Below are positions 57,610-64,000 of a DNA stretch of 64,000 nt, piece after piece. A program made the translations under genes and the position numbers. A model generated the notes under the pieces. That model had not been told where the DNA came from, ran no database searches, and saw nothing but the letters and a program-made list of their open reading frames with translations. Source of the stretch: Phaeodactylum tricornutum CCAP 1055/1. Its lineage: Eukaryota; Bacillariophyta; Bacillariophyceae; Surirellales; Neidiaceae. Location: positions 532,360 to 596,359 of the forward strand of contig NC_011680.1 in the NCBI RefSeq assembly GCF_000150955.2, in the 5' to 3' direction. Position 1 is the stretch's first letter; every line of letters begins with the position of its first letter.

Positions 57610-58224
57610 CACGCTTGATTGATGGTTGTCTGCTGTTGTTTGGAAGTGCGAGATTCCCAACATTCCCAACAACAACAACTGACGAAAAAACTCACAATCA
57701 TTTCTGATCGAAGGGATTGTACAACAACAAAAATAGATTGGCTCGAGAGAAGATTGAACACCTATGTTTTTGGCGATATATCTCGTTTGAACGAACCACC
57801 GTATTCGAAGGATAAGTCAGCTGGTATCTTGAAATATGCCTAACAGTAAGAAGAATATTCAAAAATCCATTTGATAGCCTAAGTAGTCTTGGTATTTTGA
57901 CGGTATCCGTCTAAAAAGTTGAGTAACGCAAACTGTGAGAGAGCTACCTATTCGTTTAGTGTCTGTCCCTTGTACGATACAGAAAGACTGTCCTGATCGT
58001 GTTCTCTTCTTGTAGCCTTCATTACTGGAAGCCCCCACTCCCCCAACTCGCTCCCTTGTCATGTCAAAGTGGGTATCTTCGAAGCTCGAACCGCTTCGAG
58101 ACGGTTCATTTGGTTACTCACAGACAGAAGTCAATTTCGTTCTCAACGCCTACAAAAAGAGAGAGAGAGACATCTCACGGACAACACTCCTTCCTTTATA
58201 CCTGTAGACAATCCACAACACACC
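57610..58224. promoter_or_regulatory. Divergent intergenic region
   Basis: The first 180 bp (57610-57790) match the upstream region of the intact sulfotransferase gene in inverted orientation. The rest leads into the reductase gene and includes a short GA-rich run at 58157-58172. No exon is recognised. Confidence 0.5.
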
Positions 58225-59415
58225 ATGACGGCCAAAACATTCGCTCTAGTGGTGATCTGTCTCGCCTGGGCTCTCCACCGCTACGTTCGCATTCCTCGCT
58301 CGCTGGAATGGCGTCCGTCGCCCCCGAGCGACTCGGCCACGATGAAGGCCGTGCTCTACACCGAACACGGCGACACTTCTGTCTTGCGAGTACATCAAGA
58401 CGCACCGCAGCCGCAACTCCAACCCCACCAGATACTCGTGCACGTCTACGCCTCCTCCATAAACCCCTGTGACTACAAAAACCGTCGCAACGAGGTTCCG
58501 TCATGGGTTGTCCCGAAACCCAAGATCCCCGGCGCGGACGTGGCCGGTGTGGTGGTGGCCGTGGGTTCCGGAGTCGACGTCGAACGCGTGCGTCCGTTCC
58601 GAGTCGGAGACCGCGTCGCTGCCATGTTGCCGCTCCTTCATTCCCGCTGGGGGGCGGCCGCATCGTACGTCGCCGTCGACGCCAATCTCGTGGCCCACGT
58701 CGGACCCAGAGTATCCTTACGGGATGCCGCGGCTCTACCCTTGGTCGCACTCACCACACTGCAAGCCCTGGAATCCGTCACTGTCTCGCAATCACCGACG
58801 GAGGCCCCACGAAAACGCACTATTCTCGTCCAAGCCGGAGCGGGTGGGGTCGGATCGTTCGCGATCCAGTATGCCAAACACGTTTTGCAAATGCGCGTGA
58901 TTGCCACAGCGTCATCGGAAAAGGCCGAATTTCTCCGTAGTATCGGCTGTGATCAGGTGGTGGACTACCGGAACGAGCCGTTTGAAGAGGTGGTACACAA
59001 CGTCGATGTGGTGCTGGATCCCGTCAGTTGGTTGTACGAAGACCGAACTTTGGCGAGCGAGGTGCTCCGACCCGGTGGCCATTATTTAAACATTGTAGGC
59101 TCGGACTGGGCCTTTTCTGGAACGGAACAAGGCAACGGGCCACGATCACTTTGGAACTGGATCAAAGCGAAAACCTTTGGACCGTTCAAATACAGCTTCG
59201 TGGTGGTGGAACCGAACGGTATACAGCTGCAAGCCGTCATGGACTTGCTCGAAAGCGCCACCATTCGGGCCGTTGTGGACCGAACCTTTGCTCTAGACGA
59301 TGTTCGAGAAGCGTACGAGTATCTCGAGAAAGGCCACGCCACTGGAAAGGTGGTTCTCGTGCACGAAAAGGAAGAAGTGGAATCCGGTTCTGCGACTGTT
59401 GCAGAAGAAAGTTAA
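58225..59415 (+). CDS. Medium-chain (MDR) zinc-independent reductase, membrane-anchored
   Basis: A single-exon gene gives 396 aa from ATG 58225 (context CACCATGA). Residues 1-24 form a hydrophobic segment (TFALVVICLAWALHRYV) that may anchor the protein. The MDR core then begins with MKAVLYTEHGDTSVLRV. The GroES-like part has VHVYASSINPCDYKNR and IPGADVAGVVVAVGSGVD. The NAD(P)H-binding Rossmann motif is VQAGAGGVGSFAIQYAK, and VVDYRNEPFEEVVHNVDVVLD follows. The catalytic zinc ligands of alcohol dehydrogenases are missing, which points to the quinone oxidoreductase/enoyl reductase branch (similar to RTN4IP1 and plant chloroplast-envelope quinone oxidoreductase homologues). Substrate is unknown. 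Confidence 0.88.
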   Translation: MTAKTFALVVICLAWALHRYVRIPRSLEWRPSPPSDSATMKAVLYTEHGDTSVLRVHQDAPQPQLQPHQILVHVYASSINPCDYKNRRNEVPSWVVPKPKIPGADVAGVVVAVGSGVDVERVRPFRVGDRVAAMLPLLHSRWGAAASYVAVDANLVAHVGPRVSLRDAAALPLVALTTLQALESVTVSQSPTEAPRKRTILVQAGAGGVGSFAIQYAKHVLQMRVIATASSEKAEFLRSIGCDQVVDYRNEPFEEVVHNVDVVLDPVSWLYEDRTLASEVLRPGGHYLNIVGSDWAFSGTEQGNGPRSLWNWIKAKTFGPFKYSFVVVEPNGIQLQAVMDLLESATIRAVVDRTFALDDVREAYEYLEKGHATGKVVLVHEKEEVESGSATVAEES

Positions 59416-59576: not shown

Positions 59577-62314
59577 CTAACTGTCAAGATAAATGCGTTC
59601 CACCAATCCCTGACTATTCAGCGTGACGGCTACGAACGCTTCATTCGGTGAGAGACTGGACGACTCGTGTGATGTCTTGGCTTTCTTGGTGAGTGACCCC
59701 ACGGGGACTTTCTTCGCCAAAAGCGTACGGGAACGCTTCTTGTTACCAAAGGCCATGGCACTCGTGACAATCGCTTGGTCGGAATCGATCTCGATCTGGC
59801 CGTCTCCACCCAAACATTTCTTGACGCTTACTATACCTTCCGTATTTTCTTCCATAGCAATCAAAAAGTCCATGCATATGCGACGGCGCTTGCGCCACTG
59901 ACCGGTCATGCTATCAATGCGGCGTTTGGTATGATCCTTTTGCTGTTCGTTGACCTTCAGCTTGCGGCCCGCCTCGACTGCTTCTTGGAGTTTGGTCAAT
60001 GCGGCCTCCTCCGACTCTAGACGGGCTATCGCTTCTTCGTTGGTCGGTTCAGACAAGAGTTGGGTCGTGTTCTTTGTCGCTTCTAAAAGCTGGGCCTTCA
60101 ACGCAGCTTCTTCAGCTTTGGTCTTGTGGAATAGAGAAAGGAGTTCATCACGCTCATCACGCGGGATTCCGTTCCCGCTGTTCTTAAGTTTAGAATGATC
60201 GACATAGTAGAGGCTGGTGTTGGAATTGCGCCCCACTTTGAACGACAGCCCACCCGCATAGGAATCTTCGGCATACTTTGGATCCCTCTTGACCGCTTTC
60301 TCTTTTTTGCCGCCGTCTTCGTCGTCGCTTTCCGCGAAATGGACGTCAGCGTGGTACTGGTCAAAAGCCATATCGTCTAAGCAAGCCTTCAAGACAGGCG
60401 ATGGAACAATCGCTTTCAACCCCTGTTAGCGAGAGTTTGACGCAGCCGTGAGAAACTGTGTTTGGCATCTGGGTAGAAGGTCACGACACATTTTGTTACC
60501 TTGTGAATGTCCGTAATGTTCATCGGACGAAACGCATCGTACATTAAATCAAAAACAAGCTTCTTCGCCATAGGCTTGCTAACAACAATGCGAGCTTCTG
60601 GACCTCCCATGGATTCGGCAGCTTCCTGCCACTTGCGATGTAACGCTATCAGCTGCTTACTTGGCCTAGAGTTTCCCTTCGCGGCACCTACCTTGGTGGA
60701 TTCTGCGGCAGGGCTTGGGGTCACGTTTGCCATGGCTATGGATATTCCATTCTGAACCGTGGAACCATTGGGAGGAGGCGTGAACAGAGTGTTAGTGACG
60801 TCGATTGATTCAGTGTCTTTGACCGGACTTGCCGCAGCGCCGTCAAAATTGGGCATGTCCACATCGCTCCGCTTGGAGCATTGAGATATGAGGAAATGCT
60901 GGTGATCGTCAGTCAGGTAGGTCACGGGAAGCTCGGAAAGGTGATCAGGCCAACCTCCGTAGTCGTTTTCCTATGTCAAGGAAGAGCAAGGTTAGCGCCA
61001 GTGAAGCGATATTTGATGTCTTTCAGACGAAAGAATACGCAAACTTACTTGACAATCGAGGCAAGAATACCACTTCGTACTCGGGGCGAAGTTGGATTTA
61101 TAGATGCACGCCGCCGGAAGTGTACAAGTTTCTGTTGAACATTTGACTGGGCATTCCTTGATATCATGTATCGACATAATCTTCGTAAGATCCCACACTT
61201 CCTCTCCGTCTGGACTTGGCAAGTGAGCGACTCCCAACATCATACCGGGTTTGAGCATATCATCCATGGAGTTTCCAGTACAAATCTCAAAGTTTGGCAT
61301 GTTGACGTTCTCGCTCTTTGAGCAGTGACTTTTCAAGGCATCTTTGTGCTTTTGTGACATTGCTTGGATCGGCAACTCATTCAGCTCCGGCCAACCATCA
61401 TAATCTAATTCCTAGTGACGGAGCAGAGCGATGTAAACGATGTGTCAGTATCTTTGACGATCGAGCACTCCTTGGGTCGTTCAAATTTTCCTGCTACATA
61501 CCTGGCAATCCACACATGTGTACCACTCACTAGCAGGGTCCAAGCTGGAAACGTACAGACAGGCGGCAAGCAAACTGCAAGATTCTGACATACACTTTGT
61601 GGCTTCTGATCCGGTGATATCTTCGATTGACATGATTCTTTTCAGTTCCCATGTTTCTACTGTTTCCTCGTCATTGTCGTCAGGGCTGGCCGCTTCAAGA
61701 TCTGTTGGAGTATCCGTCTTTGTATCTTTGACGGGATGCGAACCATCGCCCGCCTCGAACGGAGACGGTGCCGTTGACTCCTTCGTCTCGGGATCTTCAA
61801 CTCTCTGTTCATCTTCTGTATCTTTTCCTTCACTGTTCTTTGTCAATTCGTCGGAGCGGTCAGTAATGGACGCCAAATTTGTGGTGAGAACGACATCTTG
61901 AGGTTTATCGTTGGGTTTGATTCCTTCGGGCCATCCGCCAAAATCCGCAGCTTGACACGTTTCACAGGTGAGCCACTCCTCATCCGGTTCCAGACTGGAC
62001 ATCCACACTGCTACTGCCTTACCAGGGCAATTTTCGGTAGAACACGGTGCAACCACGCCATTGTCACGTGATGCTGGAAGGATGCGAGCGAGATCCCAGG
62101 TCTCTTCGTCCACGGTTTCTGATGCTTCTTCCGGAGGCACTTCATTGACGGTCGCCTTGCTGCTGTTCTCGTTGTCCTCGTCAAGGTTTTCGTTCCGATC
62201 TTTTGTTTCTGCACTCACGTTGTTGCCATCAATCATCGAGTCCTCTATTCCATCGGAGGAGACCGTCTTGCTGATCCCTTTCTTTGCCATGGTGATTTGG
62301 ATGTGTGCCGGCAT
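59577..62314 (-). CDS. HOP2: HOP2/PSMC3IP-like protein fused to three Cys-rich modules
   Basis: Four exons, 61502-62314, 61049-61411, 60500-60970 and 59577-60422, all joined in phase 0, give 830 aa. ATG 62314 is first; ATG 62290 has a stronger ACCATGG context. The N-terminal half has three related modules at about 71-130, 219-280 and 340-401. Each has E-x-W-(D/E)-L at its start, a C-x4-C pair (C91/C96, C241/C246, C362/C367), W-x2-C-x2-C-Q (C117/C120, C267/C270, C388/C391) and then D-x-GGWP. Modules 2 and 3 also share a 40-residue follow-on ending MPNF. The C-terminal half reads as HOP2: a winged-helix-like region (FRPMNITDIHKGLKAIVPS), a leucine-rich coiled coil and MTGQWRKRRRICMDF. HOP2 with MND1 assists Dmc1/Rad51 strand invasion. 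Confidence 0.8.
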
Positions 62315-62676: not shown

Positions 62677-64000
62677 ATGTCGGATCAGGCGTCGGAAAAA
62701 AGCCCCACACTGACCGGAAAGAATCTTCAAAAATTCTACGCACAGCACGATGTGAATCTGGAAAGCCTATTGGAAGCCGGAAATGGATGTTTCCCCTGCC
62801 GATTTATACGTTTGAATCCGCGGTGGGATCGGGATGAGACACTGCAATTGCTCAAGGTACTAAGGAAGAAAGCCCTCTGAAACACCTCTAGCTAGGTGTG
62901 TGTTTATGTTTGCTTCTCACACACACGTTTGCAATTCCGGCAGGCTGAATTGCCAACACCGAGTGTGTACCCCATTCCGGTCCCGTGGTTAGACGATGCG
63001 TTTGGTTTTTACGCGTTGCCGGGAGACTTTCCTCTGCAACGATCCAAGTCGTTCCAGTCAGCTCGTGTCTACGGACACGATGTAAGCTCCGGTGCTGCCG
63101 TGGCAGCCTTGTTGACGGATCAGCACGACGCCCACACGCCAATCATTGAGGCGGCGGGTGCACATTCGGAAACGCACAACGGGCAGCCATTGCAGCTACG
63201 CGTTTTAGATTTGTGCTGTTCACCGGGATTGAAACTTTGTGCCATGTCGGACTTTTTGAATCACCAGGGTACCCCGGCAATGGTAATTGGTGTGGATGTA
63301 TCGGAGTCGCGCATGGCGGTGTGCAAAAAAGTCGTACACAAGTATCAATTAATGCACGAAGGCATCACCAGGAGTAGTACATTGGCAACACCAAGCGACG
63401 ACTCACGAATTCGTTTATATCTGGCCGACGGCACTACATTTGGTATGGAAAATCGATCGCTCAACTTGGTTTTTGACTCAGTGGCGGCGAGTGAGGAGAA
63501 TGTTTTGGGGAAGCGAAAACGGATGAACAAAAGTGCCAGGGCCCGTCAACGGAAGCGACTAGACGCACTGATTAGCTTAGAGCAACCCAAACATTGTGAT
63601 TCTTTGCTGTCATCTAGTAATACGCCCATCATCAGCCTATTTGATCGAGTGCTGGTGGATGCTGAGTGCACAACGGATGGGTCGTTGAGACATATTCAAA
63701 AGCTCCTAGAAAAGGGACAGAGCAAGGAACCAACTCAGGATGACATTCCTCGGCTTACCGAACCAGAGCAACTGGTCGAACTGGTAGAACTGCAAAAGCG
63801 ATTAATCGCGTCCGGCTTCCGGTTACTGAGAGAAGGGGGATGTATGGTATATTCGACATGTTCTTTGTCAGAAGACCAGAACGAAGACGTAGTCCGATGG
63901 CTGCTTTCGAAGTATCCGACGGCAAGAATCGTTCCTTTAAAATTTGTCGAGTCGTTAGGTAGGCATGGTCGTATTCGGCAAGGGAACTTGGCAGGAACAA
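62677..64000 (+). CDS. RNA cytosine-5 methyltransferase (NSUN/RsmB family), 3' end beyond window
   Basis: Exon 1 is 62677-62856 (60 codons, ATG 62677). The intron 62857-62943 ends in CCGGCAG, and exon 2 runs open from 62944 to the window edge, so at least 412 residues are present and the gene is incomplete. The AdoMet-binding motif I is LRVLDLCCSPGLKLCAMSDF, followed by VIGVDVSESRM. Motif IV reads FDRVLVDAECTTDGSLRH, with Glu in place of the usual Pro of DAPC but the cysteine kept. Motif VI is MVYSTCSLSEDQNEDVV, with the catalytic Thr-Cys. The family makes 5-methylcytosine in tRNA or rRNA. An insert rich in Lys and Arg (GKRKRMNKSARARQRKR) lies between motifs. Target RNA and compartment are unknown. 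Confidence 0.88.

Follow-up and report, generated by a model that had tools for sequence, protein, structure and literature searches.

A gene on the minus strand of the window (the whole 64,000-nucleotide stretch of Phaeodactylum tricornutum DNA analysed here) encodes three cysteine-rich modules, followed by a HOP2-type winged helix, a coiled coil and a W-R-K-R cap. We consider it likely that this protein is a diverged diatom HOP2 that pairs with MND1 and aids RAD51 in strand invasion, and that its zinc-finger modules dock a protein partner. The HOP2 label has already been suggested in print; what this analysis adds is structural evidence for that label, the layout of the domains, an explanation for the protein having been missed, and the module.

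The gene has four exons and encodes 822 residues, and the coordinates of its parts were verified codon by codon (Table 1). The first-pass annotation of this DNA had placed the third intron to the exact nucleotide (GT-AG, phase 0), but had missed the two further introns that split the second and third modules. Of the 26 other relatives that bear HOP2, 11 begin with MA[KR], and the start at 62290 (MAKK...) agrees with them; an upstream in-frame ATG at 62314 is a possible alternative. The convergent neighbour (58069-59415, plus strand) is a zinc-binding dehydrogenase (PF13602, E 7.4e-28). The divergent neighbour (62896-63999, plus strand), an RsmB/F-type RNA methyltransferase (PF01189, E 6.6e-22), runs past the edge of the window.

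Table 1. Positions in the window of the gene and its parts
Feature	Coordinates	Strand	Basis or remark
Whole gene, 4 exons, 822 aa	59577..62290	-	ATG 62290, stop 59577; same layout in relatives
Exons	62290-61502, 61411-61049, 60970-60500, 60422-59577	-	
Module A, residues 64-122, C-x4-C ... W-x2-C-x2-CQ-x2-DFGGWP	61925..62101	-	module profile; predicted compact fold
Module B1, residues 213-272, split between CQ and E by intron 61412-61501	61385..61654	-	module profile, tree
B1 tail (class B), residues 273-304, fifth Cys (HCSK...MPNF)	61289..61384	-	alignment
Module B2, residues 336-393, split between CQ and E by intron 60971-61048	60944..61195	-	module profile, tree
B2 tail (class B), residues 394-426, fifth Cys (QCSK...MPNF)	60845..60943	-	alignment
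Intron 1, 90 nt, GT-AG, phase 0	61412..61501	-	
Intron 2, 78 nt, GT-AG, phase 0	60971..61048	-	
Intron 3, 77 nt, GT-AG, phase 0, within winged helix	60423..60499	-	
Winged helix of HOP2 type, residues 516-561, with wing 597-615	60201..60577	-	contains intron 3 and acidic insert
Acidic insert, residues 562-596, between helix 3 and wing	60258..60362	-	alignment of halves; common to relatives
HOP2-type coiled coil, residues 616-716	59898..60200	-	HHalign to plant HOP2; helices in P0012 model
Basic W-R-K-R-R-R cap region, residues 717-745	59811..59897	-	counterpart of HOP2's W-R-K-R-K-R; HHalign

Some 5.8 billion proteins were searched for relatives; scoring of the best 7996 word-sharing candidates gave 25, and a second search with the modules alone added two. 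The source names the organism for P0012 (Cylindrotheca fusiformis) and P0008 (Epithemia clementina), and P0005 we take to be Cyclotella cryptica by its prefix CCRYP. The remaining relatives are called diatom on similarity alone.

All three modules match a module profile at i-Evalues of 1e-27 to 1e-29 in the resulting set of 28 proteins, these three being among the profile's 14 seeds. Module 2 as sole query recovers modules 3 and 1 genome-wide at 1.4e-11 and 3.7e-11. The set holds 57 complete modules in 26 of its 28 proteins, with one to three per protein among those having any. They fall into class A (n=24) and class B (n=33), a split with support of 96/94 in a tree of few columns, where 14 of 54 inner branches are starred. 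In that tree P0022_1 and P0023_2 group with class B despite a provisional A label. Class A is N-terminal; class B adjoins the HOP2 half, is longer and has a fifth conserved cysteine, present in 30 of 31 class-B-like tails. The P. tricornutum order is A-B-B, which on alignment and tree replaces the simple triplication proposed earlier: three modules there are, but not equal copies. Introns at the same spot in B1 and B2 point to duplication of one B unit, and P0023 has an apparent read-through intron at the same module place as intron 2. The GGWP ending earlier ascribed to every unit does not hold for module 2, which ends D-Y-D-GWP.

Cysteine occupies the four ligand columns, arranged in two pairs, in 56, 57, 57 and 56 of the 57 modules. 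One exception is a histidine for the last cysteine (P0026); the other is a glycine, by its sequence that of P0022_1, where another cysteine lies two residues ahead. Three modules (P0002, P0009, P0013) have the first knuckle shortened to C-x2-C with both cysteines kept. These counts, together with the Cys-to-His swap, strongly support the zinc binding that had been suggested from the letters, and the modules probably do bind zinc. Tryptophan at columns 2 and 50 (54 of 57 modules) and the D-F-G-G-W-P end are conserved as well. A single module predicted alone folds compactly, with a block pLDDT of 92-94 across residues 31-60 of the model, in the order strand, Cys knuckle, two strands, and a helix starting within the second Cys pair.

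By sequence the module corresponds to no Pfam family. Fourteen modules scanned at E up to 10 gave two chance-level listings and no family beyond these, and the module profile matched nothing among PDB sequences. A fold search of the PDB and viral models returned nothing at E 0.001 or better (best PDB match E 0.85; best viral-model match E 0.11 and prob 0.97, to a protein that is uncharacterised); several of these non-significant matches are zinc domains. The absence of fold matches is no demonstration of a new fold. The CW domain was considered and rejected on sequence: PF07496 matches none of the 14 modules at E up to 10 and is found five times elsewhere in the genome, in keeping with the initial description of the module as only loosely like CW. 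Those five zf-CW matches, all over cut-off, lie at G000:C3:566579-567286, C1:2251231-2251698 and C5:686515-686658; C3 has two neighbouring ones, and C1 also has two.

The DNA signature of the module occurs three times in the genome, always in this gene (the backward control occurs twice), and a module search of the genome gave one further match only, at E 1.75 and with two stops. Neither tblastn nor pattern searches found relatives in viral contigs and prokaryote genomes. The module seems undescribed: the literature searched yielded no account of it.

What might such a module do? The 57 modules have a mean net charge of -3.1 (46 negative, 2 zero, 9 positive), and those of P. tricornutum carry -7, -9 and -3 in an N-terminal half that is strongly acidic. 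The first-pass annotation had suggested that the reading of chromatin or DNA could be linked to strand invasion, an idea that stands as a conjecture. Because the modules are mostly acidic, we favour a protein partner over direct DNA binding, and protein docking is probably their function. Direct, GATA-type binding of DNA or RNA by the modules, which would give the protein a second DNA grip besides its winged helix, is unlikely in our judgement. The predicted order of knuckle, hairpin, C-x2-C and helix is that of a treble clef, many treble-clef fingers bind DNA, and zinc domains figure among the non-significant fold matches listed, but the prevailing negative charge of the modules and of the whole N-terminal half speaks against it. 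We are similarly doubtful that the modules are structural or redox switches for assembly or stability of HOP2-MND1 and not docking sites. That the cysteine columns are among the most conserved in the module, and that copy number varies from one to three, would suit a switch; conservation of the aromatic tryptophans and the D-F-G-G-W-P end is rather what a binding face would need.

The protein-docking reading leads to the following mechanism. HOP2-MND1 is established, in part as described in PMC4647503, to assist recombinase filaments as they search for homology and capture a duplex. Here the diverged HOP2 half, with its winged helix, coiled coil and basic cap, would pair with the MND1 encoded in the same genome, and the complex would help RAD51-coated DNA to capture and invade a homologous duplex; we name RAD51 as the recombinase because diatoms are reported to be without DMC1. 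The N-terminal half would present one to three four-cysteine zinc fingers on acidic, flexible linkers, most likely docking HOP2-MND1 on a protein partner, for example a histone tail or a component of the chromosome axis. A bolder version, to which we give little credence, would make the modules a novel type of reader for chromatin or the chromosome axis. Diatoms are reported to be without DMC1, HOP1 and RED1, and the pairing guidance missing in them would then be built into HOP2; HOP2-MND1 would read a histone mark or axis protein and deliver RAD51 filaments to chosen sites.

The C-terminal half has, by modelling and profile comparison, a putative HOP2-type fold. Against Pfam TBPIP the single P. 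tricornutum sequence scores below the cut-off (E 0.071, 13.5 bits for the whole protein). TBPIP is found in 8 of 24 family members at E up to 1 (best 0.0015), with no full-length sequence seen to reach the Pfam cut-off; it is nevertheless the family matched by most of the 24 members, and Mnd1 is absent among the 25 families listed. An acidic insert is seen in the alignment of 26 halves, one of which ends before it. When the insert was left out of three sequences, Cyclotella passed (23.1 bits against a cut-off of 22.8), P. tricornutum reached 18.3 and P0001 15.1. LZ3wCH was not detected in the whole protein (E up to 10), in two cap pieces (E up to 1) or, for the relatives, among the 25 families listed; the same Pfam library detects it in the MND1 of this genome.

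A PDB search with the predicted model of P0012 gave no match at E 0.001 or better; the Hop2-Mnd1 entry 4y66 ranked first (E 0.022) and the HOP2 entry 2mh2 third (prob 1.00, E 0.12). The winged helix of 2mh2 overlays the model at an rmsd of 1.1 Å over 62 residues, the lowest among the 50 matches listed. With an rmsd of 29.5 across 190 columns, the 4y66 match depends on the winged helix, a fold for which many unrelated proteins reach a similar VIA Z, one of them slightly higher. The family profile found only coiled coils among PDB sequences, at E 1.7 or worse. In the same P0012 model two strands form the C-terminal end (59645-59580, minus strand, in P. tricornutum), for which the aligned halves reaching that far share an ending of roughly F-x-x-V-x-L-x-S-x-G-x-V-x-R-V/I-Y.

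HHalign of the whole half with plant HOP2 gave a probability of 95.4 and a score of 62.9, over coil and cap. Among the controls, none of 30 column shuffles exceeded 28.2, the reversed comparison scored 20.8 and the MND1 of this genome scored 21.3, the last being one sequence and therefore a weaker control than a profile. Coil end and cap together reached 87.1% against HOP2; the winged helix alone reached no significance (19.2 for plant HOP2, 16.3 reversed, 19.2 for MND1). Kept out of the diatom set were P0027 and 7 of 26 halves, of which four contained read-through introns and three were truncated; the canonical set was the 120 listed of 445 proteins found, 4 of them dropped for length, and those with a named organism are plants. 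The whole-half comparison thus beats all controls, and this profile search of the HOP2 half bears out a call that had first been made by eye.

There is only a slim chance that this half belongs to some other protein of winged helix and coiled coil, for example a second MND1-like paralog. Such a reading would draw on the sub-threshold Pfam scores, the generic nature of the winged-helix fold and the equal winged-helix scores for HOP2 and MND1. It is opposed by the preference for TBPIP over Mnd1 among the families listed, by the rank of the Hop2-Mnd1 entry and the low rmsd to 2mh2, by the alignment of coil and W-R-K-R cap with plant HOP2, and by a separate, canonical MND1 in the genome.

The fusion of modules and HOP2 half recurs in relatives. 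A module profile scan of the 28 proteins found at least one complete module in 25 of the 27 that bear HOP2, complete or cut short and with this gene included; the search queries contained modules, so module-free relatives are under-sampled in that count. Of the two others, P0016 has a piece of a module only, beginning where the module intron would be, and P0024 (476 aa, an MMETSP transcript) has the HOP2 half without any module and a Lys/Ser-rich N-terminus instead. The modules would then be dispensable in P0024, unless the transcript is partial. That independent relatives hold both halves in one protein upholds the first-pass view of a single transcript. Moreover, the winged-helix intron is read through at the same place in the gene calls of P0006, P0010, P0011 and P0015, in a stretch running from an initial V to a final Q, the pattern expected of a phase-0 GT...CAG intron; P0023 and P0027 stop short at this position, and the P0005, P0008 and P0012 proteins have no read-through stretch there. 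From this recurrence across relatives the intron is very probably real and old. An erroneous joining of two adjacent genes, for which nothing speaks besides protein length, is hardly credible given the same fusion in the Epithemia and Cylindrotheca proteins and in CCRYP_018637-RB (presumably Cyclotella cryptica by its prefix), whose MAKER quality line indicates, in its QI field, transcript-confirmed splice sites.

One relative carries a module without HOP2. P0025 (981 aa, on a 5400-base contig) combines a class B module with a KOW-like stretch (E 6e-5, under the curated cut-off), a weakly cupin-like region (E 0.03) and a stretch that by eye looks C2H2-like. Outside the module it has a single weak match (E 0.007) in the P. 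tricornutum genome. Its KOW- and cupin-like stretches in place of HOP2 suggest that the module can travel between proteins, and are weak evidence that fits a role in chromatin or transcription.

The proposed partner is present. In the genome searched (27,450,724 bases, 88 contigs) a canonical MND1 lies at G000:C5:169377-169674, with Mnd1 (8.4e-22) and LZ3wCH (2.5e-14) both over the Pfam cut-offs; MND1 is canonical, in contrast to its diverged HOP2 partner. Genome searches with TBPIP or plant HOP2 did not recover the present gene. For a second HOP2 gene, the diatom half as query gave elsewhere only E 1.4 or worse, and plant HOP2 gave only two matches, at E 0.06 and 0.14. Because plant HOP2 and TBPIP miss the gene described here, an equally diverged second gene is excluded only by the search with the diatom half.

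These findings bear on a gap in the diatom literature. Across five genomes of diatoms plus one transcriptome, MND1 was found and HOP2, DMC1, HOP1 and RED1 were not (PMC4647503); that paper left it undecided whether diatom HOP2 is absent, with MND1 working in some other way, or too diverged to detect. HOP2 was also said to be missing in diatoms in a study where SIG7 appears as an unannotated gene induced in sex (PMC6678668). In Seminavis robusta the SIG7 ortholog was noted to carry a Hop2 domain, with the comment that 'more work is needed' (PMC8027222), and marker M3, which is SIG7, is described as a presumed distant HOP2, sex-specific and present in all major diatom clades (PMC12618581). HOP2 is listed for Ectocarpus (PMC6610115) and Pelagomonas (PMC9481584), and the diatom form is on that account probably derived from an older HOP2.

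Diatoms had thus been scored as having MND1 and lacking HOP2, and our evidence favours a HOP2 too diverged to find. As a reason for its being overlooked we offer the acidic insert in the winged helix and the unrecognised cap. P. tricornutum has no reported sexual stage (PMC4647503), and its copy may accordingly act in mitotic repair or lie idle. The altered HOP2 and its module nonetheless provide a concrete handle on meiosis in diatoms: SIG7/M3 is among the most sex-specific diatom markers reported (PMC12618581), and with probable orthologs of that kind the role of the module is testable in species with laboratory crosses.

How does the protein compare with known systems? From its HOP2 domain and single copy, the gene is probably a member of the SIG7/M3 family (Sro587_g171310, Pmu0010180), which we liken to it by description. 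Both have a HOP2-type domain; the family is diatom-wide and mostly single copy in print, and here there is a single gene in the genome. Cysteine modules go without mention in the available portions of the SIG7/M3 descriptions.

The modules recall two classes of zinc domain. The zf-CW domain has W-x2-C-x2-C and then a conserved W-P, as the modules do, with its two Cys pairs in a different order; PF07496 has no match at this locus. A knuckle, a hairpin and a Cys pair where a helix begins are features of the treble-clef or GATA-like family, and the predicted module order is alike. The modules differ from those fingers in their C-x4-C first knuckle, their acidity and the lack of a significant fold match.

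The closest comparison is with HOP2/PSMC3IP (TBPIP PF07106 and LZ3wCH PF18517). Unlike it, the diatom protein is extended at the N-terminus by roughly 490 residues, which include the zinc-type modules; it also has an acidic insert ahead of the wing and a further C-terminal end, and LZ3wCH is not recognised in it. The winged helix, coiled coil and basic W-R-K-R cap come in the same order in both, and MND1 is likewise present in this genome.
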